Shown one piece after another: positions 45,758-56,727 of a DNA stretch of 64,000 nucleotides. Every line of letters begins with the position of its first letter. Position 1 is the stretch's first letter. Source of the DNA: Methyloversatilis discipulorum (GTDB lineage Bacteria > Pseudomonadota > Gammaproteobacteria > Burkholderiales > Rhodocyclaceae); NCBI RefSeq assembly GCF_018780585.1, contig NZ_JADMJL010000015.1:1-64000 (forward strand). Direction: 5' to 3'. The notes under the pieces were generated by a model. That model was not told where the DNA came from, searched no databases, and saw only the letters and a list, made by a program, of their open reading frames with translations. Made by a program: the position numbers and the translations under genes.

Positions 45758-45963
45758 TACATTGTTGGCGTCCAGTTCTGCAGACATCGTCGAACCCACG
45801 CCTTCCTGCCCAGAGACTTGCTCGCCCTCGTCGTCAGTGCCACCACGGACACTGGGTTCACCACCCGCAGCAGCCGTACAGCCCGTCCGCATCCATGGGG
45901 CGTCCACCGGGGGCGCATCCGACACGGCCGGGGCACGACAAGAAGACCCAAGGAGGCAGGAAG

Positions 45964-46869
45964 ATGGCCGGGATGACGCAGCGAGGCGCCCGCAGGGCGC
46001 AGGTGTCGGTAGAGAGCTTGTCCGTGCAGGAGCAGGGCGGCGTGAGCCACTTCGGTGGGCCGCCGATCGGACCGCCCGTATTTGCCGCCCCCGACTGGCT
46101 GGGGGATCTGGCGCAGACGATAGAAGCGGAAATCATTCCACGGCTGATGCTGGCGCACGGCGATCTGGTCGATCTGCCGCCGGCCGGGGCGGGCGCAACG
46201 ACCATCTCGGCGCGCGAAATCCACGAATTTGCCAACCTCGTGCTGGCACAGGATGCTGGCGTCGTACGCAACTGCGTGCAGGCGATCCGCGCCCGCGGCG
46301 TCGAGCCACGGGTCATCTGTCTCGACTTGCTGGCGCCGGCGGCGCGCCGGCTCGGCGAGCTGTGGGAAGCCGATCTGTGCGATTTCACGCAGGTCACGCT
46401 CGGCCTGTGGCGGATCCAGCAGGTGCTGCACGACGTCAGCCCGAGTTTCCGCAGCGATCTGCATTCGGGCGAGACAGGCCGCCGCGTGCTGCTCGCCACC
46501 TTGCCGGGAGAGCAGCACACCTTCGGTATGTCCATGGTGGCCGACTTCTTCCGCCAGCGCCGCTGGGACGTGCGCCTCGACACACCGGGTCCGCGCGGCG
46601 AAGCGCTGCGCCTGCTGCGCGCCGAGCGCTTCGATCTGGTGGGCGTGTCGCTCGGCAGCGAAACGCGCTTCGATGAACTGGCGGAATGGATCACCACCGC
46701 TCGCCGCGTGTCGCTGCAACGCGACATCGTGGTGATGGTCGGCGGCCCGATCTTCGCCAGCCGGCCGGAATGGGTGCCGCTGGTCGGCGCCGACGCGACC
46801 GCGCGCGATGCGAGCGCCGCGGTCGATGTGGCCGAAGCATTGCTGCCTGTGCGATTTGCGCATGGGTGA
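45964..46869 (+). CDS. ppaA: PpaA/AerR-type cobalamin-binding antirepressor
   Basis: This is a 301-residue regulator with a C-terminal B12-binding domain. The motif E183-x-H185-x-x-G188 (GEQHTFGMSM) is the cobalamin lower-ligand signature, followed by FDLVGVSLGSE and VVMVGGPIF of the Rossmann-like fold. Its upstream helical domain (ICLDLLAPAARRLGELWEADLCDFTQVTLG) is typical of the MerR/B12 photoreceptor relatives. AerR/PpaA proteins bind CrtJ/PpsR and modify its action in response to light and oxygen. It lies 21 bp upstream of ppsR. Confidence 0.92.
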   Translation: MAGMTQRGARRAQVSVESLSVQEQGGVSHFGGPPIGPPVFAAPDWLGDLAQTIEAEIIPRLMLAHGDLVDLPPAGAGATTISAREIHEFANLVLAQDAGVVRNCVQAIRARGVEPRVICLDLLAPAARRLGELWEADLCDFTQVTLGLWRIQQVLHDVSPSFRSDLHSGETGRRVLLATLPGEQHTFGMSMVADFFRQRRWDVRLDTPGPRGEALRLLRAERFDLVGVSLGSETRFDELAEWITTARRVSLQRDIVVMVGGPIFASRPEWVPLVGADATARDASAAVDVAEALLPVRFAHG

Positions 46870-46890: not shown

Positions 46891-48387
46891 TTGGGTTCGG
46901 AGCAGGGGCGCGATCAGATCGCGAAAATGGACGCCGATGCGGGAAGGTTGACGGTGAAGCCTTTTGATTCGCCGATGGGTTTGCTACATGGCGTCGATGC
47001 CGAGTCGGCTGCACGACTCATTGCCGCCGCCTCCGACGTTGCGCTGTTGCTCGACGACAAGGGCGTCATCCGCGACCTTGCATTCAACGACGGCGCGCTG
47101 CTGCCCGAGGCCGGCGCGCGCTGGCTTGGGCGCCGGTGGACCGAGGTGGTGACGGTTGAAAGCCGCCCCAAGGTCGAGGCGCTGCTGCAGGACGCAGCCA
47201 GCGGCGAAAGCCGCCGTGCGCGGCACGTCAATCATCCGGTGCAGGGCGGCAGCGATCTGCCGCTGCTGTACTCGACCGTGCGCATCGGACACGACGGCAC
47301 GGTCGTCGCACTCGGCCGCGACCTGACGGCGCTGTCCATGCTGCAGCAGCGGCTGGTCGATGCGCAGCAGTCGATCGAACGCGACTATGCCCGCCTGCGC
47401 CAGCTCGAGGCGCGCTACCGCCTGCTGTTCCAGATGACGTCGGAAGCGGTGCTGGTGGTCGATACCGTCAGCCAGCGCATCGTCGAGGCGAATGCCGCCG
47501 CCAACCGGATGCTGGGCGAGGACGCGCGCAGCGTGGTCGGCCGCAATTTCCCGGAAGGGCTGGACGACGCCGGCAATCAGGCGGTGCAGGGACTGTTCGC
47601 CGCGGTGCGTGCCAACGGTCGTTCCGATGACGTCCGCGTGCGCGGGCCGGGGGGTGGCGACTGGCTGGTGGCCGCCTCGCTGGTCAGACAGGACGCCGCA
47701 TCGCTTTATCTGGTGCGGCTGTCGCAGATCGGTGCCACCGGCACCGAATCGGGCGAGCGGATGTCGGTGGTCGATGCGGTCGAAATGGTGCCGGACGCCT
47801 TCGTGCTGACCGGCGAGGACGGCGTCATCCTGACCGCCAACCAGGCCTTCGTCGATCTCGCGCAGCTGGCAAGCATCGAACAGGCGCGCACGCAGTCGCT
47901 CGAACGCTGGCTTGGCCGTCCGGGCGTTGATTTCAAGGTGCTGATGGTGAACGTGCGCCAGCACGGTTCGATCCGCCTGTTCTCGACCGTGCTGCGCGGC
48001 GAGCACGGCTCGGACGTCGACGTCGAGGTGTCGGCGGTCGCGGTGGACCGCGGTGAGCGTCCGTGCATCGGTTTCACCGTGCGCGGCGTCAGCCGCCGCA
48101 TCGAGCCGGAACCGCGGGTCAGCCGCGAGATGCCGCGTTCGGTCGAGCAGCTGACCGGCCTGGTCGGTCGCGTGTCGCTGAAGGATCTGGTGCGCGAATC
48201 GACCGATCTGATCGAGAAGCTGTGCATCGAGGCGGCACTCGACATGACGCACGACAACCGCGCGTCGGCGGCTGAAATGCTTGGCCTGAGCCGGCAGAGC
48301 CTGTACGTGAAACTGCGCCGTTATGGCATCGGCGATCTCAACGCCGATCAGGGCGACGACGGCGGGCAGGAGCCGGGCGAGGAGTGA
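46891..48387 (+). CDS. ppsR: PpsR/CrtJ photosynthesis repressor
   Basis: This is a transcriptional repressor of photosynthesis genes, 498 residues. An N-terminal PAS domain, a Q-rich linker helix (MLQQRLVDAQQSIERDYARLRQLE, about 150-175) and two further PAS domains precede a Fis-type helix-turn-helix (NRASAAEMLGLSRQSLYVKLRRYG, about 456-480). Two cysteines are present, Cys392 and Cys445. Cys445 is just before the DNA-binding helices, where redox control of CrtJ/PpsR is known. The TTG at 46891 follows GGAGGG with ideal spacing; the ATG at 46927 is an alternative. Confidence 0.94.
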   Translation: MGSEQGRDQIAKMDADAGRLTVKPFDSPMGLLHGVDAESAARLIAAASDVALLLDDKGVIRDLAFNDGALLPEAGARWLGRRWTEVVTVESRPKVEALLQDAASGESRRARHVNHPVQGGSDLPLLYSTVRIGHDGTVVALGRDLTALSMLQQRLVDAQQSIERDYARLRQLEARYRLLFQMTSEAVLVVDTVSQRIVEANAAANRMLGEDARSVVGRNFPEGLDDAGNQAVQGLFAAVRANGRSDDVRVRGPGGGDWLVAASLVRQDAASLYLVRLSQIGATGTESGERMSVVDAVEMVPDAFVLTGEDGVILTANQAFVDLAQLASIEQARTQSLERWLGRPGVDFKVLMVNVRQHGSIRLFSTVLRGEHGSDVDVEVSAVAVDRGERPCIGFTVRGVSRRIEPEPRVSREMPRSVEQLTGLVGRVSLKDLVRESTDLIEKLCIEAALDMTHDNRASAAEMLGLSRQSLYVKLRRYGIGDLNADQGDDGGQEPGEE

Positions 48388-48548: not shown

Positions 48549-49430
48549 ATGACACGTCCAGCCCTCTCTGCCGTTGCCGAACTGCTCAAGCCCATCACCT
48601 GGTTTCCGCCGATGTGGGCTTTCGGTTGTGGCGTCGTCGCCTCCGGCCTGCCGGCCGGGGAGCGCTGGCAGGTCGTGCTGCTCGGCGTGCTGTTGGCAGG
48701 GCCGCTGGTCTGCGCGACCAGCCAGGCGGTGAATGACTGGTTCGACCGTCATGTCGATGCGATCAACGAACCGCAGCGTCCGATCCCATCCGGTCGCATG
48801 CCGGGTCACTGGGGTCTCTACATCGCAGTCGCCTGGACGCTGCTGTCGCTGCTGGTGGCGACCGCGCTCGGTCCCTGGGGCTTTGCCGCCGCCGCTGTCG
48901 GCCTGCTGCTGGCTTGGGCCTACAGCGCGCCGCCGCTGCGGCTGAAGGCCAACGGCTGGTGGGGCAACACCGCCTGCGCGCTCTGTTACGAAGGTCTGGC
49001 CTGGGTGACCGGTGCGGCGGTGATGGCCGGCGGTGCGATGCCCGACCTGCGCAGCCTGCTGCTGGCCGGCCTGTACAGCGCCGGCGCGCACGGCATCATG
49101 ACGCTGAACGACTTCAAGTCGGTCGATGGCGACCGTCGCATGGGCATCGCCTCGCTGCCGGTGCAACTGGGGGTTGCGCGCGCCGGTCGGGTCGCCTGCT
49201 GGGTGATGGCGGTGCCGCAAGTCGTCGTCGTCGCGCTGCTCGCGCACTGGGGCGCGCCGGCACACGCTGCGCTGGTGGGCATGCTGCTCGGTGCCCAGCT
49301 GATGCTGATGTCCCGCCTGCTGGACGACCCGCGCGCGCGCGCGCCTTGGTACAACGGCACCGGCATCACGCTCTACGTGCTCGGCATGCTGGTGAGCGCC
49401 TTCGCACTGCGCGCGCTCGGAGGCGACTGA
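48549..49430 (+). CDS. bchG: Bacteriochlorophyll synthase
   Basis: This UbiA-family membrane prenyltransferase esterifies bacteriochlorophyllide a with geranylgeranyl (or phytyl) diphosphate. It is 293 residues with about eight helices. The two Asp motifs are NDWFDRHVDAINEPQRPIPS and DFKSVDGDRRMGIASLP. No ribosome binding site precedes the ATG, which coincides with the predicted transcription start. It is followed 1 bp later by the PucC-family gene. Confidence 0.95.
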   Translation: MTRPALSAVAELLKPITWFPPMWAFGCGVVASGLPAGERWQVVLLGVLLAGPLVCATSQAVNDWFDRHVDAINEPQRPIPSGRMPGHWGLYIAVAWTLLSLLVATALGPWGFAAAAVGLLLAWAYSAPPLRLKANGWWGNTACALCYEGLAWVTGAAVMAGGAMPDLRSLLLAGLYSAGAHGIMTLNDFKSVDGDRRMGIASLPVQLGVARAGRVACWVMAVPQVVVVALLAHWGAPAHAALVGMLLGAQLMLMSRLLDDPRARAPWYNGTGITLYVLGMLVSAFALRALGGD

Positions 49431-49431
49431 C

Positions 49432-50796
49432 ATGAACAACGCCCTCGGCTGGATCGGTATCTTCCGCCTCGGTCTGGTGCAGACCGCGCTCGGCGCCATC
49501 GTCGTGCTGACCACGTCGACGCTGAACCGCGTCATGGTGGTCGAACTGGCCTTGCCGGCCATGCTGCCGGGCGTTCTGGTGGCGCTGCATTACGCGGTGC
49601 AGATGCTGCGGCCACGCCTCGGGCACGGATCGGATCTGGGCGGGCGGCGCACGCCGTGGATCATCGGCGGCATGGCGGTACTGGCCGCCGGCGGCACGCT
49701 GGCCGCAGTCGCCACCGTGCTGATGGCCGATCACTTCGTCGCCGGTGTCGCCTTGGCGGTGCTTGCCTTCGCACTGATAGGCGTCGGTGTCGGCGCCGCC
49801 GGCACCTCGCTGCTGGTGCTGCTCGCCAAGCGCGTGGACGACGGCCGCCGTGCGGCCGCCGCCACCATCGTCTGGATGATGATGATCCTCGGCTTCGCCG
49901 TCACGGCCGGCATCACCGGCAAGCTGCTCGATCCTTTCTCCGGCGAGCGGTTGTTGCAGGTCGTTGCGGGCACCTCGGTCTGCGCCTTCATGCTGGCGCT
50001 CGTCGCCGTGCGCGGCGTCGAGGGCGCCGGCCCCGCTGCGAACACGGTGTCGACGGGGCTGCCGCACTCTCCTCTTCAGCGCACCCCATTCCGCGCTGCG
50101 CTTGCCCAGGTCTGGGGCGAGTCGCATGCGCGGCTTTTTACACTGTTCGTGTTCGTGTCCATGCTCGCCTACAGCGCGCAGGACCTGATACTCGAACCCT
50201 TTGCCGGCACCGTGTTCGGCTATTCGCCCGGGCAGTCGACCCAGCTGTCGGGCCTGCAGCACGGCGGCGTGTTCGCCGGCATGCTGCTGGTGGCGCTGAC
50301 CGGTACCGTGTTCGGCGGCCGGCAGATCGGCTCGCTGCGGCTGTGGATCATCGGCGGCTGCATCGCCTCGGCCTGCGCGCTGTCGGGCCTGACCGCCGCT
50401 GGCTTCAGCGGCCAGGGCTGGCCCTTGCGCGAAACCGTGTTCCTGCTCGGCGTTTCCAATGGCGCGTTCGCGGTGGCCGCAATCGCGTCGATGATGCGCC
50501 TGGCCGGCCAGGGCGGCGCTGGCCGCGAGGGCGTGCGCATGGGTCTGTGGGGCGCGGCGCAGGCGATCGCTTTCGCGCTGGGCGGATTCGCCGGCACCGT
50601 CGCGGTCGATCTGACACGTGCCCTGATCGCCGAACCGGGCGTCGCCTATGCGCTGGTGTTCGCTGGCGAGGCGCTGCTGTTCATCGTATCGGCCTCCATG
50701 GCGATGCGGATTTCCGGCCTGCAGCCGGCGACCGTGGCGGCGCGTGCGCCGGCCGCGCCGTTACCGCTGATGCCGCGCGCGGAAGGAGAGGCCTGA
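49432..50796 (+). CDS. PucC-family bacteriochlorophyll protein (Bch2/ORF428-like)
   Basis: This is a second PucC-family membrane protein, 454 residues and about twelve helices, set between bchG and bchP exactly where R. capsulatus has ORF428. Motifs shared with LhaA are TLNRVMVVELALPAMLPG, SAQDLILEPFAGTVFGYSPG and GVRMGLWGAAQAIAF. A role in handling or delivering bacteriochlorophyll is inferred from the family. Confidence 0.92.
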   Translation: MNNALGWIGIFRLGLVQTALGAIVVLTTSTLNRVMVVELALPAMLPGVLVALHYAVQMLRPRLGHGSDLGGRRTPWIIGGMAVLAAGGTLAAVATVLMADHFVAGVALAVLAFALIGVGVGAAGTSLLVLLAKRVDDGRRAAAATIVWMMMILGFAVTAGITGKLLDPFSGERLLQVVAGTSVCAFMLALVAVRGVEGAGPAANTVSTGLPHSPLQRTPFRAALAQVWGESHARLFTLFVFVSMLAYSAQDLILEPFAGTVFGYSPGQSTQLSGLQHGGVFAGMLLVALTGTVFGGRQIGSLRLWIIGGCIASACALSGLTAAGFSGQGWPLRETVFLLGVSNGAFAVAAIASMMRLAGQGGAGREGVRMGLWGAAQAIAFALGGFAGTVAVDLTRALIAEPGVAYALVFAGEALLFIVSASMAMRISGLQPATVAARAPAAPLPLMPRAEGEA

Positions 50797-50798
50797 TC

Positions 50799-51968
50799 AT
50801 GGAAAGCTACGATGTGGTGGTGGTCGGCGGCGGGCCTGCCGGGGCCACCGCGGCGACCGATCTGGCGCGACGCGGCTACGCGGTGCTGCTGCTCGATCGC
50901 GGCGGGCGAATCAAGCCCTGCGGCGGCGCGATACCGCCGAAGGCGATCGAGGAGTTCCGCATTCCGGATGAACTGCTGGTCGCCCGTGCCCGCTCGGCAC
51001 GCATGGTGGCGCCCAGCGGGCGCGCGGTCGACATGCCGATCGACGGCGGTTTCGTCGGCATGGTCGATCGCGAGCAGTTCGACGAATACCTGCGCGAACG
51101 GGCCGGACTCGCCGGCGCGCATCGGCGCAGCGGGAGCTTTCAGCGGGTGAGCCGCGACGGTGCCGGCTCGGCCGTCGTGCATTACCGCGTCGGCGAGCAG
51201 GGCGAGCGCTGCGTGCGCGCCCGCGCCATCATCGGCGCCGACGGTGCGCTGTCGGCGGTCGGCCGGCAGTGTGTGCCGGGCGCCGACCAGGTGCCCTGCG
51301 TGTTCGCCTACCACGAGATCGTGCGCGCGCCGCAGACCGGTTTCGACGGCAGCCGCTGCGATGTCTATTACCAGGGCCGGCTGTCGCCCGATTTCTACGG
51401 CTGGGTGTTCCCGCACGGCGACACGGTCAGCGTCGGCGTCGGCTCGGCGCGCAAGGGCTTCTCGATACGCGGCGGCGTCAGCGCCTTGCGCGACAGTGCC
51501 GGCCTCGGCACAGCCGGCACCGTTCGCAGGGAAGGCGCGCCGATTCCGATGCGCCCGCTGCGGCGCTGGGACAATGGCCGCGACGTGGTGCTGGCCGGCG
51601 ACGCGGCTGGCGTCGTCGCGCCGGCGTCCGGCGAAGGCATCTACTACGCGCTCAGTGGCGGCCGGCTGGCGGCCGAGGCGGTCGACGCCTATCTGGTCAC
51701 CGGCGATGCGCGCGCGCTGAGGCTGGCGCGCAAGCGTTTCATGAAGGCGCACGGCCGGGTGTTCATGGTGCTCGGCATCATGCAGCGCTTCTGGTACGCG
51801 AGCGACAAGCGGCGCGAACGCTTCGTCAGCATCTGCCGCGATCCCGACGTGCAGCAGCTCACCTGGCAGGCCTACATGCACAAGCGGCTGGTCCGTGCGC
51901 GGCCGCTGGCGCACATGCGCATCTTCTTCAAGGACCTTGCGCACCTCTGCGGCATCGTGTCGCCATGA
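50799..51968 (+). CDS. bchP: Geranylgeranyl reductase
   Basis: This FAD- and NADPH-dependent enzyme reduces the geranylgeranyl tail of bacteriochlorophyll to phytyl. It is 389 residues. N-terminal dinucleotide motif GGGPAGATAATDLARRG, then CGGAIPPKAIEEF, and the FAD ribityl-binding motif VLAGDAAGVVAPASGEGIYYA are visible. Its end overlaps the tspO start by 4 bp. Confidence 0.96.
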   Translation: MESYDVVVVGGGPAGATAATDLARRGYAVLLLDRGGRIKPCGGAIPPKAIEEFRIPDELLVARARSARMVAPSGRAVDMPIDGGFVGMVDREQFDEYLRERAGLAGAHRRSGSFQRVSRDGAGSAVVHYRVGEQGERCVRARAIIGADGALSAVGRQCVPGADQVPCVFAYHEIVRAPQTGFDGSRCDVYYQGRLSPDFYGWVFPHGDTVSVGVGSARKGFSIRGGVSALRDSAGLGTAGTVRREGAPIPMRPLRRWDNGRDVVLAGDAAGVVAPASGEGIYYALSGGRLAAEAVDAYLVTGDARALRLARKRFMKAHGRVFMVLGIMQRFWYASDKRRERFVSICRDPDVQQLTWQAYMHKRLVRARPLAHMRIFFKDLAHLCGIVSP

Positions 51969-52456
51969 ATGCCCGGACGGCCACGCGCTGGAAGCCGGTG
52001 GCCGTCGCTGCACTTGCCGCGCTTGCGGTGGCCGGCCTGGGCGGTGCCATGACCGATCTGAGCGACTGGTACCGTGCGCTCGCCAAACCCGCCTGGCAGC
52101 CGCCGGACTGGGCTTTCGGGCCGGCCTGGACCCTCATCTTCGGTCTTGCCGCCGCCGCCGGCGTGCTCGGCTGGCGCCATGCGCCGGACGCGCGAGGGCG
52201 TCGGCAGATGCTGGCGATGTTCGCCGCAAACGGCGGCCTGAACGTGCTGTGGAGTGCGCTGTTCTTCCATCTGCGCCGTCCCGACTGGGCGCTGGCCGAA
52301 GTCGTGCTGCTTTGGCTGTCGGTGGTGTTCCTGATGGTCCGCCTGCGACCATGGTCCGCACGTGCGGCCGCGCTGTTGCTGCCGTATGCGGTGTGGGTCG
52401 CGTTTGCGGCAGCGCTGAATCTGTCCATCGTCCGCCTGAACGCCCCCTTTGGCTGA
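51965..52456 (+). CDS. tspO: TspO/MBR-family tryptophan-rich sensory protein
   Basis: This is a 163-residue membrane protein with five predicted helices and many tryptophans (LAKPAWQPPDWAFGPAWT, GLNVLWSALFFHLRRPDWA). TspO proteins bind porphyrins; in Rhodobacter sphaeroides TspO down-regulates photosynthesis genes in response to oxygen. It overlaps bchP (ATGA), so it is probably co-translated with the bchG-bch2-bchP set. Confidence 0.94.
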   Translation: MNARTATRWKPVAVAALAALAVAGLGGAMTDLSDWYRALAKPAWQPPDWAFGPAWTLIFGLAAAAGVLGWRHAPDARGRRQMLAMFAANGGLNVLWSALFFHLRRPDWALAEVVLLWLSVVFLMVRLRPWSARAAALLLPYAVWVAFAAALNLSIVRLNAPFG

Positions 52457-52713: not shown

Positions 52714-53901
52714 GTGAACAAGCTACCGAACGATCCAGGAGACCTGAGCGCCTTCTCCGATGTGGCCCCGGAGTTGGCCGACATGCTCGTGTCGGTCGCC
52801 AGCGACATCGCGCTGGTGATCGATGAAAAGGGCGTCATCCGCAGCGTCGCGCTGGGCGGCACCGAGCCGGTCAGCGCCGCAGCCGGCGAATGGCTGGGCC
52901 GCCAGTGGATAGACACGGTGACGCCGGACACCCGCCGCAAGGTCGAGGACCTGCTGAACGAGGCGGCCGAGTCGGGCGTTTCGCGCACCCGCCACATCAA
53001 TCACCCGTCGCTCGCCGGCAGCGATCTGCCGGTGGCCTACACCGCGGTGCGCCTCGGCCATGGCGGCCCGCTGCTGGTGGTCGGACGCGACCTGCGCGCC
53101 GTCTCGGCGATGCAGCAGCGGCTGGTCGACGCCCAGCAATCGATGGAACGCGACTACTGGCGCATGCGGCAGGCGGAAACCCGCTACCGCCTGCTGTTCC
53201 AGATCGCCACCGATGCGGTACTGGTGGTGGACGCCGACACGCTGCGCATCGTCGACGCGAACCGTGCCGCCGGCCGTCTGTTCGGCGGTACGGTGCAGGA
53301 CATGCCCGGCCGCCAGGCCGGCTACGCGCTGGCGCCGTCCTCGCTGCCCGTACTGGAAGAGCTGCTGGGCACGGTGCGGGTGTCCGAGCGCCCGGGCGAC
53401 GCGATGCTCGACCTGGCGTCGGGCGGGCGCATCCACGCGTGGGTATCCTTGTTCCGCGACGAAGGCAGCACGCTGCTGTTGATGCGCGCCTGGCCCGAAG
53501 GCGGGCAGATGCCGCCAGCGGTCGACGATGCGATGCTGCCGGAACTGGTGCGTCTGACACCCGATGCGGTCGCCTTCACCGACGAACAGGGGGTGTTGCT
53601 GAGCGCCAATCCGGCTTTCGTCGAGCTGGTGCAGGGCGTCGACATGGCGTCGCTGCGTGGCCGCTCGATGGCGGAATGGCTGTCCGGCGAGAGCGACGGA
53701 CTGGGTGCCCTGATCGCAGCGGTACGGCAGAGCGGCACGCTGCGTCTGGCGACGCGTCTGCGCAACGAGCGCGGGCACGACGTCGATGTTGAACTGTCGG
53801 CTGTGCTGATCCATAACGGAGACTCGAACACCATCGGTCTCATCATCCGCGCAGTGCAGCCGCGCGGTCCCGGCGTGGGGGTCAGGGGTCGCATGCACTG
53901 A
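52714..53901 (+). CDS. PpsR-like PAS protein lacking the helix-turn-helix
   Basis: This is a 395-residue paralogue of the PpsR at 46891. It matches that protein from the N-terminal PAS (SDIALVIDEKGVIRSVALGG) through the Q-linker helix (MQQRLVDAQQSMERDYWRMRQAETRYRLLFQ split across the linker and PAS1) and the last PAS (DVDVELSAVLIHNGDSNTIG). It then stops with RGRMH instead of continuing to a Fis-type domain. It has no cysteine. bphP begins 2 bp after its stop, so no DNA-binding part is hidden downstream. The GTG at 52714 fits the PpsR alignment. The role is unknown; a dominant-negative or bridging partner for PpsR and the phytochrome is my inference. Confidence 0.85.
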   Translation: MNKLPNDPGDLSAFSDVAPELADMLVSVASDIALVIDEKGVIRSVALGGTEPVSAAAGEWLGRQWIDTVTPDTRRKVEDLLNEAAESGVSRTRHINHPSLAGSDLPVAYTAVRLGHGGPLLVVGRDLRAVSAMQQRLVDAQQSMERDYWRMRQAETRYRLLFQIATDAVLVVDADTLRIVDANRAAGRLFGGTVQDMPGRQAGYALAPSSLPVLEELLGTVRVSERPGDAMLDLASGGRIHAWVSLFRDEGSTLLLMRAWPEGGQMPPAVDDAMLPELVRLTPDAVAFTDEQGVLLSANPAFVELVQGVDMASLRGRSMAEWLSGESDGLGALIAAVRQSGTLRLATRLRNERGHDVDVELSAVLIHNGDSNTIGLIIRAVQPRGPGVGVRGRMH

Positions 53902-53903
53902 GC

Positions 53904-56075
53904 GTGTCGCGCAAAGTGAACGATCCTCTCTACAGTCCGCCCTTCGGTCAGGCCGACCTGACCAACTGCGAGCGCGAACTCATCCACCTTGCCGGCTCGA
54001 TACAGCCGCACGGCGTGCTGCTGGTCGTGCGTGAATCAGACCTGCAGGTGCTGCAGGCCAGCCTGAATACCGAACAGTGGCTGGGCGTGCAGCACGCGGC
54101 GGTGGTCGAGGCGCCGCTGCCGGCGCTCGGTGGCGACCTGGCGGCGCGTGTGCGCGAACTGGGCCGGACGCTGACCGAACTCGAACTGACGCCTTTCCAC
54201 TGCAGCACCGGCCACGGCGGGCTGTTGCGGCATTTCGAGGGCATGGCGCATCGCGGGCAATCCGGCACGCTGATCGTCGAACTCGAGACCGCCGGGCCGC
54301 CGGCCGAGGACGTCGCAGCCCAGGCCCTGCTGGCGACGGCGGTGCGACGCTTCAGCGAGGCGATGAGCGTCGATGCACTGGCCGACACTGCGGTGCAGTC
54401 GATACGCGAACTGACCCGTTACGACCGCGTGATGGTGTATCGCTTCGACGCCGACGGCCATGGCGAGATCGTCGCCGAGGCGCGCGACGACCGGCTCGAC
54501 ACCCTGCTCGGTCACCGCTATCCGGCAACCGACATTCCGCAGCGCGCCCGCGATCTCTACCTGCGCAACCGGGTGCGCGTGCTGGTCGATGCGCGCTACC
54601 TGCCGGTCGCCGTCGAACCGCGCCGGCTGCCGCACGGCGGCGAAGAGCTGGACATGTCGATGTGCCACCTGCGCAGCATGTCGCCGCTGCACATCCAGTA
54701 CCTGCGTAACATGGGCGTGACCGCCACGCTGGTGGTGTCGCTGGTGCGCGAGGGGCGGCTGTGGGGGCTGATCGCCTGTCATCACTATTCGCCGCGGCGC
54801 ATCCATTACGCACAGCGCGCCGCCGTCGACGTGCTGGCGGAGGTGATGTCGACGCGCATCGCGGCGATCGAGAACTATGTGCGCACCCAGGTCGACGTGC
54901 TGGTGCGGCGCATGGAACTGCGGCTGATCGAGGCGACGTCGACCGAGGGCGACTGGCGTGCGGCGCTGATGCGCAACGCGCGCACCCTGCTGCAGCCGAT
55001 GGACGCTAGCGGTGTCGCGCTGCTGCACGACGGCGAACTGCTGACCGCTGGCGAGGTGCCGTCCACCGAGTCGGTGCGCGCGCTGGCCGGCTGGGTCTCC
55101 GGCGAAATGAAGCAGATGCTGTTCAGCTGCGCCTCGGTCGAGCGCGCCAACCCGGCGCTGGCCTACCTGACGCCGGGGGTGTGCGGCGTGCTGGCGATCG
55201 ATCTGTCGACGCGGGGCCGCAATCTGCTGATGTGGTTCCGGCGCGAGCAGCGTGCCAAGCTGACCTGGGCCGGCGACCCGGCGAAGCCCATGGTCGACAA
55301 CGATCCGCTGACCTTGTCGCCACGACGCTCCTTCGAGGCGTGGTCGGAAATCGTGCGCGGCACCGCGGCACCGTGGTCGCGCGCCGATCTGGCGCTGGCG
55401 CGCGCGATCGGCGCCTCGCTGCGCGACGTGATCATGCAGACGCAGGCGGTGCGCCTGCTCATCGCCCAGCACCAGCTTGAAAAATTTCGCACCGCCGTCG
55501 ACGAGTCGCCGGAGCCGCTGCTGGTTGCCGACGGCGACGGCCGCATCCTGTTTCCCAGTCCGGCGCTCGCCGGCATCCTGCCGGGCGGCTGCCGGCAGCC
55601 GGTGAATTTCGACGAACTGGCGGCGCTGTTCGAAGATCAGGCCTCGGTGCGCGATGTGTTGAGGTCGCTGCGCGAAGGACGTGTGTCGTGGCGTGGCGAG
55701 TGGCGGATGAGCGGTGGCATTGCGCTGGGCGTGCGCGCCGACGTCGTGCCAGGCCCGCGCGACGCCGTGCTCGGCTGCATCCTGATGTTCACCGACCTCA
55801 CCGATGCGAAGCGCACCGAGGCGGCGCGTCGCCATCTCGAACAGTCGCTGACGATGACCGGTCAGGCCGATGCGCAGCTGACCACGCGCGAGGCGCGCGG
55901 CCTGCCCGACGAAGTAATGGGCGCCATCCTGGCCAATGCGAGCGTGGCGGCAATGGAGCTGACCGACACCACGGCGTCGATCCCGGTCGCTACGCTGATC
56001 GAGGAACTGGAGGCATCGGCGACGCGCGCCGCGGCGGTCTATGCCCGCCTGCGCGAATTCAACCGCCCACTCTGA
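53904..56075 (+). CDS. bphP: Bacteriophytochrome with PAS output, no kinase catalytic domain seen
   Basis: This is a red/far-red biliverdin photoreceptor of 723 residues. The PAS-GAF-PHY core spans about residues 15-510. Cys22 in DLTNCERELIHLAG is the biliverdin attachment site, PATDIP and MCHLRSMSPLHIQYLRNMGV mark the GAF pocket, and PRRSFEAWSEIVRG is the PHY tongue. A PAS domain follows (about 520-635), then a roughly 80-residue helical tail. I find no HATPase motif. Such PAS-output phytochromes control photosynthesis genes through PpsR in Bradyrhizobium and Rhodopseudomonas. It starts with GTG, 2 bp after the HTH-less PpsR gene. Confidence 0.93.
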   Translation: MSRKVNDPLYSPPFGQADLTNCERELIHLAGSIQPHGVLLVVRESDLQVLQASLNTEQWLGVQHAAVVEAPLPALGGDLAARVRELGRTLTELELTPFHCSTGHGGLLRHFEGMAHRGQSGTLIVELETAGPPAEDVAAQALLATAVRRFSEAMSVDALADTAVQSIRELTRYDRVMVYRFDADGHGEIVAEARDDRLDTLLGHRYPATDIPQRARDLYLRNRVRVLVDARYLPVAVEPRRLPHGGEELDMSMCHLRSMSPLHIQYLRNMGVTATLVVSLVREGRLWGLIACHHYSPRRIHYAQRAAVDVLAEVMSTRIAAIENYVRTQVDVLVRRMELRLIEATSTEGDWRAALMRNARTLLQPMDASGVALLHDGELLTAGEVPSTESVRALAGWVSGEMKQMLFSCASVERANPALAYLTPGVCGVLAIDLSTRGRNLLMWFRREQRAKLTWAGDPAKPMVDNDPLTLSPRRSFEAWSEIVRGTAAPWSRADLALARAIGASLRDVIMQTQAVRLLIAQHQLEKFRTAVDESPEPLLVADGDGRILFPSPALAGILPGGCRQPVNFDELAALFEDQASVRDVLRSLREGRVSWRGEWRMSGGIALGVRADVVPGPRDAVLGCILMFTDLTDAKRTEAARRHLEQSLTMTGQADAQLTTREARGLPDEVMGAILANASVAAMELTDTTASIPVATLIEELEASATRAAAVYARLREFNRPL

Positions 56076-56727
56076 GCCTGGCGGCGTCGCCGGCCGGCAG
56101 CGCCTCGAAAATGTCCACGTGACGCAGGAAGGCGGCTTCGGCTTCACGTGCGATGTCCGCCCGCGTGGCGTCGTCGCGCGACGGACCGTCGAGTGCGGCG
56201 CGCAGTCGTGCGCTGAGTTCGGCCGGCGCATGGGCACCGAAGCGGTAGAAGCGGGTGCCGGTTTCGCCGTCCAGCGCGAAGCACCGTGCGACGATGCGCT
56301 GCAGGATCTGTCCGCCCTGCAGATCGCCGAGGTAGCGCACATACACGTGCGCGAGCAGCAGTTCCGGCCGGCGCGCCGACAGTTCGCTCAGGCGCGCGGC
56401 GTAGTCCGCTGCCGCGTCGACCAGCGGCAGCGCGTCCGCCCAGCCGTCGCCATGCAGTGTGGCCAGGTCGGCTTCCAGCGCCGCGCAGCGCGGCAATCCT
56501 TCGATGTCGAGTCCGGCCAGGCCGGGGTGCGCCGCATGCCGCGCCAGCGCGGCTTCCAGATCGCGGTAGATCGGGTGCAGGTTGCGCAGCAGGATGCAGT
56601 AGGCGGTCAGCCCGAGTTCGCCGCGCAGCAGCGCCGGCATCGGGCCGCTGCGCTCGACCTGCGTGTGATGTGCTGCGGTTACCTGTCTGAGGCGCTGCGA
56701 CAGCGGGGGCTGTTCGGTGGCGTGCAT
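56059..56727 (-). CDS. bphO: Biliverdin-producing heme oxygenase
   Basis: This enzyme opens haem to biliverdin, the chromophore of the neighbouring phytochrome. It is 222 residues. The proximal-His region is AHHTQVERSG near residue 21, and the distal-helix glycine motif is YLGDLQGGQILQRIV. It is convergent with bphP and the last 17 bp overlap that gene's 3' end, so the two messages are complementary there. Confidence 0.93.
   Translation of the reverse strand: MHATEQPPLSQRLRQVTAAHHTQVERSGPMPALLRGELGLTAYCILLRNLHPIYRDLEAALARHAAHPGLAGLDIEGLPRCAALEADLATLHGDGWADALPLVDAAADYAARLSELSARRPELLLAHVYVRYLGDLQGGQILQRIVARCFALDGETGTRFYRFGAHAPAELSARLRAALDGPSRDDATRADIAREAEAAFLRHVDIFEALPAGDAARLRVGG

Follow-up and report, generated by a model that had tools for sequence, protein, structure and literature searches.

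The question raised by this locus is why a gene for a PpsR-type regulator that lacks its DNA-binding domain stands directly before a bacteriophytochrome gene, and by what route light could act through such a pair. The locus lies in the first 64,000 nucleotides of contig NZ_JADMJL010000015.1 of Methyloversatilis discipulorum (assembly GCF_018780585.1), hereafter the window. A preliminary description, made from the sequence alone, had taken the protein to be a natural PpsR paralogue that stops short of the Fis-type helix-turn-helix (HTH). The literature disagrees on how the phytochrome BphP1 grips its partner PpsR2: the SAXS model described in PMC6899989 places the HOS part of BphP1 against the HTH of PpsR2, whereas PMC13058837 describes binding to an HTH-free Q-PAS1 piece. 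Natural HTH-less partners make this contact site testable. Coordinates of the features are collected in Table 1.

Table 1. Features of the locus, with positions in the 64,000-nt window.
Feature	Positions	Strand	Remarks
AerR-like B12-binding protein	45895..46869	+	match to AerR 7te2, E 5e-22
Canonical full-length PpsR	46891..48387	+	498 aa; Fis-type HTH with cysteine 445; putative target
Genes between the two ppsR genes	48549..52456	+	UbiA family (bchG), PucC/MFS, FAD protein (bchP), tspO
HTH-less PpsR paralogue (short PpsR)	52714..53901	+	395 aa; from translation, alignment, profile searches and shared start position
N-PAS of short PpsR	52756-53061	+	approximate, aligned to R. sphaeroides PpsR 4hh2
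Q-linker helix of short PpsR	53062-53178	+	approximate, aligned to 4hh2
PAS1 of short PpsR	53179-53484	+	approximate, aligned to 4hh2
PAS2 of short PpsR	53521-53850	+	approximate, aligned to 4hh2
bphP	53904..56075	+	PAS-GAF-PHY, then PAS9-like and HOS-like parts
Haem oxygenase (makes biliverdin)	56059..56727	-	convergent with bphP, 17 bp overlap

Translation of the short gene from its GTG start gave an open frame of 395 codons in which the sole stop is terminal. The protein aligned to the full-length PpsR over residues 17-384 with 43% identity and one gap, and it matched the NCBIfam model TIGR02040 (PpsR/CrtJ) at 297.7 bits (cut-off 275.4) over positions 1-362 of 442; the full-length protein, also above the cut-off, scored 508.4 bits over positions 1-442. 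These two window proteins are the only ones in the genome above the PpsR cut-off. Alignment, Pfam and phmmer together identified N-PAS, Q-linker, PAS1 and PAS2 in that order, and phmmer aligned residues 15-379 to R. sphaeroides chain 4hh2 (E 3e-47). The Pfam domain HTH_8, located at residues 441-478 of the full-length PpsR, was not found in the short protein. Alignment, family model and domain search thus agree with the preliminary description of a paralogue that stops before the HTH.

That description had also held that the missing part is not displaced by a frameshift, given that bphP starts 2 bp past the stop codon of the short gene. A six-frame scan of ~1.5 kb downstream of 15 entries for HTH-less genes, using an HTH profile built in this analysis, bears this out, as it identified no displaced HTH (best E 3.3). 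An artefactual stop codon had been named as an outcome that would overturn the reading; the short form is no artefact, because a second, HTH-less copy occurs in all 10 PpsR-bearing genomes of the genus, and these copies together with the six-frame scan rule out a sequencing error or frameshift. GTG or ATG occupies the same start codon position in the nine Methyloversatilis short copies examined, and the N-terminus is near-identical in eight of the nine, that of L071 having diverged.

The genes are ordered aerR-like, ppsR, bchG, pucC/MFS, bchP, tspO, short ppsR, bphP and convergent haem oxygenase; the names bchG and bchP were assigned by position and by analogy with the gene order described in PMC10569730. 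No PHY domain other than that of the window BphP was found in the genome, and Pfam identified no kinase domain in this protein. The biliverdin-Cys and DIP motifs are both present. Its tail can be aligned to the BphPs of alphaproteobacteria, its PAS9 part aligns to 4gw9, and its best PDB match overall is this same structure, which is RpBphP1 without HOS (PMC6899989).

In the BphP1-PpsR2 system of R. palustris and Bradyrhizobium, as described in PMC10569730, the photosynthesis cluster has ppsR2 adjoining the gene of a type-3 phytochrome (PAS-GAF-PHY-PAS9-HOS), and this second ppsR lies beyond bchG-MFS-bchP. The window has the same layout, with a gene in the ppsR2 position directly before a type-3 bphP and a haem oxygenase gene nearby. 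Because the window order resembles the Bradyrhizobium order ppsR1-bchG-MFS-bchP-cycA-ppsR2-bphP, the short gene occupies the place of ppsR2; cycA lies between bchP and ppsR2 in Bradyrhizobium, whereas the window has tspO there, a gene that a second Bradyrhizobium cluster type also contains (PMC10569730). The order ppsR2-bphP-haem oxygenase was likewise found in an alphaproteobacterial locus (L100). The known PpsR2 differs in that it has an HTH and is reported to bind DNA (PMC6899989, PMC10569730). The parts belong to the known BphP1-PpsR2 module, here in a variant whose PpsR2 has no HTH; a natural HTH-less PpsR was described in none of the titles and abstract openings among the matches listed, which come from mostly open-access literature.

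PpsR was identified in 10 of 13 Methyloversatilis genomes, and each of these 10 has one full-length and one short copy. All 10 short copies end at model positions 362-369 of 442 and all are followed by bphP; the three genomes without PpsR gave no PHY match. A search for HTH-less PpsR genes next to bphP in other genomes, proposed in the preliminary description, thus found them throughout the PpsR-bearing members of the genus and also in other betaproteobacteria. Based on the NG86 method, dN/dS of the short ppsR was 0.044, 0.067 and 0.059 among the window, L064 and L065, and 0.012-0.069 among L066-L069; for the canonical ppsR it was 0.024-0.040, and 0.019-0.035 among its four close copies. Values of distant species (dS ~0.7-1.5) were excluded. 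In these close pairs the short gene lies near the canonical values, slightly higher overall, and its dN/dS of 0.01-0.07 indicates that it is under purifying selection. It encodes a natural HTH-less PpsR, conserved and selected, that is paired with an RpBphP1-like phytochrome. The short gene is open in 9 of the 10 genomes; in the exception, G401, codon 195 is an in-frame TAG (L070:7853-7855) with the frame open on both sides, for which a pseudogene, an error or a recent loss are candidate explanations.

A search with the short protein returned nine loci of named relatives: six from Methyloversatilis (66-71% identity), two from Gemmatimonadota and one from Methylibium. NCBI taxonomy separates the two genera, assigning Methyloversatilis to Nitrosomonadales and Methylibium to Burkholderiales; the order that the two share in our genome set is presumably Burkholderiales in GTDB. 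We surveyed overlapping genome samples with TIGR02040 at E 1e-40. PpsR was present in 49 of 399 genomes of the order sample (two copies in 10), 5 of 199 of the family sample, 8 of 12 of f29, 40 of 250 of family f49 (two copies in 19), 5 of 67 of family f20, 31 of 398 of the phylum sample and 69 of 347 of the alphaproteobacterial order sample, although the large samples may miss weak copies because few candidates per genome were scored. Among the 82 matches listed for the alphaproteobacterial order none was HTH-less, all reaching model positions 441-442. Second copies in the betaproteobacterial loci that we retrieved differ at the C-terminus, where the HTH is altered but recognisable, cut off or absent, and the related second PpsRs of other betaproteobacteria mostly adjoin type-3 (kinase-less) phytochromes.

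A local HTH profile was trained on 75 presumed-canonical rows, one of which (the second copy of L119) proved weak. Canonical rows scored 103-134 bits, three alphaproteobacterial rows beside type-3 bphP 74-89 bits, 20 betaproteobacterial rows beside type-3 bphP 26-66 bits, and three related rows away from type-3 bphP 36, 41 and 67 bits (L095, L099, L119); this gradient is partly built in, because the profile was trained on canonical rows. Scores below 4 bits, or none, were obtained for the Methyloversatilis short copies, for L054, L055, L057 and L062 (f29) and for L098 (f49). This HTH-less class is not a profile artefact, because its proteins end after PAS2. A weak score is not claimed as loss of the HTH, since Pfam HTH_8 was still identified in 7 of the 17 members of alignment A1, nine of which have residues in the HTH region. 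The linked alphaproteobacterial copies likewise score 74-89 bits, although PpsR2 of R. palustris reportedly acts on DNA. Model coverage also failed as a proxy for HTH loss, as matches in G069, G189 and G220 (f22) end at 367-368 and yet the HTH is present at 124-126 bits. The f22 proteins at L052, L053 and L060 are single PpsRs in which a longer linker between PAS2 and the HTH stops the family model match at 367-368.

For residue counts, the linked clade was defined by an HTH score below 95, which gave 40 rows; 36 of these adjoin a type-3 bphP, and four do not (L095, L098, L099, L119). Linked-clade PpsRs with no type-3 bphP nearby lie at L098:6700-7941 (G1165) and L099:5816-7387 (G1131), and the phytochromes in these two genomes are only 32-35% identical to the window BphP. 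The L098 protein is HTH-less and has a long branch (1.09), as if its partner had gone. The genomes of L095 (G997, 80% complete) and L119 (G1532, 94% complete), whose linked-clade PpsRs have a weak HTH, gave no PHY match.

We aligned 116 PpsR rows of at least 360 aa, taken from the loci fetched, which cover part of the PpsR-bearing genomes; the two halves of the G401 gene were too short and were excluded. A tree restricted to the 370 PAS columns of 94 rows was built by a quick method with SH-aLRT support only, after 22 rows, mostly near-copies, had been omitted. Second copies form two clades on starred branches: clade A (26 rows, support 99) comprises Methyloversatilis and f49/f20, and clade B (9 rows, support 100) comprises alphaproteobacteria and f29. 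Parsimony places four changes of the HTH-less state on the tree, all four forced by starred branches; the count carries no direction, and regain of an HTH is thought unlikely. A single origin of the HTH-less form was rejected, the AU test giving p-AU 4.8e-39 for one HTH-less clade, and joining clades A and B, which would place the Methyloversatilis short copies in one clade with alphaproteobacterial PpsR2, was not rejected (p-AU 0.506). Because four changes are forced on the tree and a single HTH-less clade is rejected, the best reading of HTH loss is convergence inside one or two second-copy lineages.

Constraint has also shifted among the domains that remain. Across nine short copies of the genus, mean pairwise identity was 94% in the Q-linker, 86% in N-PAS and 66% in PAS2, the least of the domains; for the canonical PpsR over the genus it was 95% in the HTH, 88% in the Q-linker, 79% in PAS2 and 69% in N-PAS. 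The difference in identity (linked minus canonical copies) over N-Q-PAS1 was +0.08 in Methyloversatilis (9 genomes), +0.03 in f49/f20 (16 genomes) and 0.00 in f29 (6 genomes), and over PAS2 it was -0.14, -0.20 and -0.33 in the same genomes. The 95% column-bootstrap intervals of the contrast (0.13-0.31, 0.16-0.29 and 0.24-0.40, respectively) all exclude 0. An earlier round with 4, 9 and 4 genomes gave the same result as all genomes at hand (9, 16 and 6), in which the N-Q-PAS1 excess is smaller; without the four f49/f20 genomes whose copy lies away from bphP, the excess in that group rises to +0.07. The Q-linker of the linked f29 copies is slightly less conserved than that of the canonical ones (0.76 vs 0.81). 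Based on these contrasts, PAS2 has been relaxed together with the HTH, with N-Q-PAS1 kept by selection, a pattern that fits a binding role for N-Q-PAS1.

The window Q-linker has Q134, L137, Q141, E145, Y148 and R152, which match, by residue and spacing only, six CrtJ positions that face AerR/SCHIC in the models of PMC9144470. It also has W149 (53158-53160), at a position where W occurs in 40 of 40 linked-clade rows vs 23 of 76 canonical rows. W149 is a candidate BphP contact residue, to be taken as a lead only. Among canonical rows W shows no association with the lack of a linked copy, occurring in 13 of 34 rows where one is present and in 10 of 42 where none was seen.

The preliminary description had stated that the short protein lost the redox cysteines of PpsR. 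The window protein has no cysteine (other Methyloversatilis short copies have 0-2), so that part stands; however, 74 of 76 canonical rows also lack the textbook PpsR cysteine at the end of PAS1, which makes the argument weaker than it had been put. Because the local full-length PpsR has only the HTH one of the two textbook cysteines, what was lost is that one, together with the HTH. The HTH cysteine is present in 73 of 76 canonical rows vs 3 of the 26 linked-clade rows with residues there, and PpsR2 of most R. palustris strains is described as being without it (PMC6899989). Linked copies thus seem in general to have lost it, and the HTH-less form takes this further.

Counterparts without an HTH have been made in the laboratory. 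The Q-linker and PAS1 of R. palustris PpsR2 are described as the minimal, sufficient partner of BphP1 (PMC13058837, PMC7555876), and this HTH-free piece binds BphP1 in near-infrared light, which backs the earlier statement that PpsR2 fragments without the HTH still bind. The engineered optogenetic piece is man-made and lacks N-PAS and PAS2, whereas the window protein keeps N-PAS among its most conserved parts. R. sphaeroides PpsR was crystallised without its HTH (4hh2; PMC3949515, PMC9144470), and this PpsR-deltaHTH has the same three PAS domains and an almost identical end point, although it is a laboratory truncation and the window gene is natural. According to PMC3949515, N-Q-PAS1 of PpsR dimerises and forms no tetramers, PpsR-deltaHTH forms dimers, and tetramers at higher concentration, and AppA binds the Q-linker. 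AppA and AerR both adjust PpsR/CrtJ through protein contact (PMC3949515, PMC9144470); they have BLUF-SCHIC and B12-binding folds, whereas the modulator proposed here is itself a PpsR paralogue.

Considering these data together, we somewhat favor the explanation that the short PpsR is a light-linked anti-repressor or adaptor that would act on the canonical PpsR through protein contact, gated by BphP. The preliminary description, which had suggested that the gene may titrate PpsR or bridge it to the phytochrome, is supported in part. The window gene would be the ppsR2 of a ppsR2-bphP-haem oxygenase light module that has lost its DNA-binding domain and works by contact only. Since the BphP has no kinase domain and the short PpsR has neither an HTH nor another recognised output domain, the signal would have to pass by contact, and the canonical PpsR is its obvious target. 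By analogy with known systems, the short PpsR would contact BphP, PpsR and possibly AerR. Its N-Q-PAS1 part may keep the surfaces for dimerisation and regulator binding. By pairing with the canonical PpsR via its N-PAS and Q-linker, the short PpsR would reduce the pool of PpsR oligomers able to bind DNA, although such heterodimers are not assured, because the two window proteins share only 47% (N-PAS), 64% (Q-linker) and 37% (PAS1) identity. In one light state, the HOS helices of BphP would bind the short PpsR at its Q-PAS1 face and so decide whether the short PpsR is free to pair or moves onto PpsR in a complex. Whether light represses or derepresses would depend on the mode, as plain sequestration by lit BphP would favor repression and bridging would relieve it. 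Further observations speak against this light-linked anti-repressor: the TAG in G401, the four linked-clade rows away from bphP, the reported SAXS contact with the HTH, the lack of a TGTN12ACA box within 260 bp upstream of the short ppsR and the slightly lower Q-linker conservation of the linked f29 copies. If the SAXS contact is valid here, the short PpsR has lost part of its contact with BphP. We regard as evenly balanced the broader proposition that phytochrome-linked PpsR2 of phototrophic betaproteobacteria is repeatedly and independently being turned from a DNA-binding regulator into an output-less adaptor, acting on the canonical PpsR as a dominant negative or a bridge.

The short PpsR could instead be chiefly a partner or stabiliser of BphP, or relay its signal to a target other than PpsR. 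Its place beside bphP in all 10 PpsR-bearing genomes of the genus and the invariant W149 of the linked clade are in keeping with this, but both genes sit within the photosynthesis cluster in a Bradyrhizobium-like ppsR...ppsR2-bphP order, with an obvious homologous target in the same cluster, and we consider this explanation rather unlikely. It is improbable that the short PpsR remains on DNA as a light-sensing subunit of mixed oligomers with the canonical PpsR, rather than titrating it. PpsR acts as dimers, tetramers and octamers (PMC3949515), an AppA-PpsR-DNA ternary complex has been reported in R. sphaeroides, and N-PAS and the Q-linker are kept; the relaxed domain, however, is PAS2, a contributor to the tetramer.

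A role as a decoy, in which the main partner of the short PpsR is the B12 photoreceptor AerR (or a different co-regulator of PpsR), bound via the conserved Q-linker face, and PpsR is controlled indirectly, would draw on the aerR-like gene just upstream of the canonical ppsR and on the six matched Q-linker positions (PMC9144470). These residues may be kept for the coiled coil alone, most of the other linked-clade rows have F at residue 137 (21 of 40), and the pairing with bphP would go unexplained; we judge a decoy quite improbable. Least probable, and very much so, is gene decay, with the loss of the HTH an early stage on the way to a pseudogene and the protein functionless. The relaxed PAS2, the nonsense codon in G401, the long L098 branch and the four linked-clade copies without their bphP could be taken as decay, but dN/dS is low, the gene is open in 9 of 10 genomes of the genus, and N-PAS and the Q-linker are better conserved in the short copies than in the canonical PpsR (86% and 94% vs 69% and 88%).

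If the broader proposition of a repeatedly evolved adaptor is true, Q-PAS1 is where the light-dependent contact between BphP and PpsR sits, and the HTH is dispensable for it. The locus would also be an evolutionarily repeated case in which a repressor paralogue has turned into a protein-only regulator. Light may act here via protein contacts and not via binding of the repressor itself to DNA. The locus also offers candidate near-infrared optogenetic partners that are already without a DNA-binding domain.

The motif TGTN12ACA occurs 11 times in the whole window, vs ~4.3 expected from base composition. Within the reading frame of the short ppsR, a PpsR-box-like palindrome, TGTCN10GACA, lies at 52790-52807 and may be there by chance; the window has a single further one, at 46709, close to where the aerR-like gene ends. 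In the BphP encoded at L096:7986-10226 (G1142), the biliverdin-Cys and DIP patterns were both not found, and this may be a chromophore-free phytochrome; the PpsR linked to it has the weakest HTH among copies that keep one (26 bits). The biliverdin-Cys pattern was also not found in L056. One alphaproteobacterial genome (G1479) has two separate ppsR2-bphP-haem oxygenase modules (L101 and L103) in addition to a canonical PpsR (L102).
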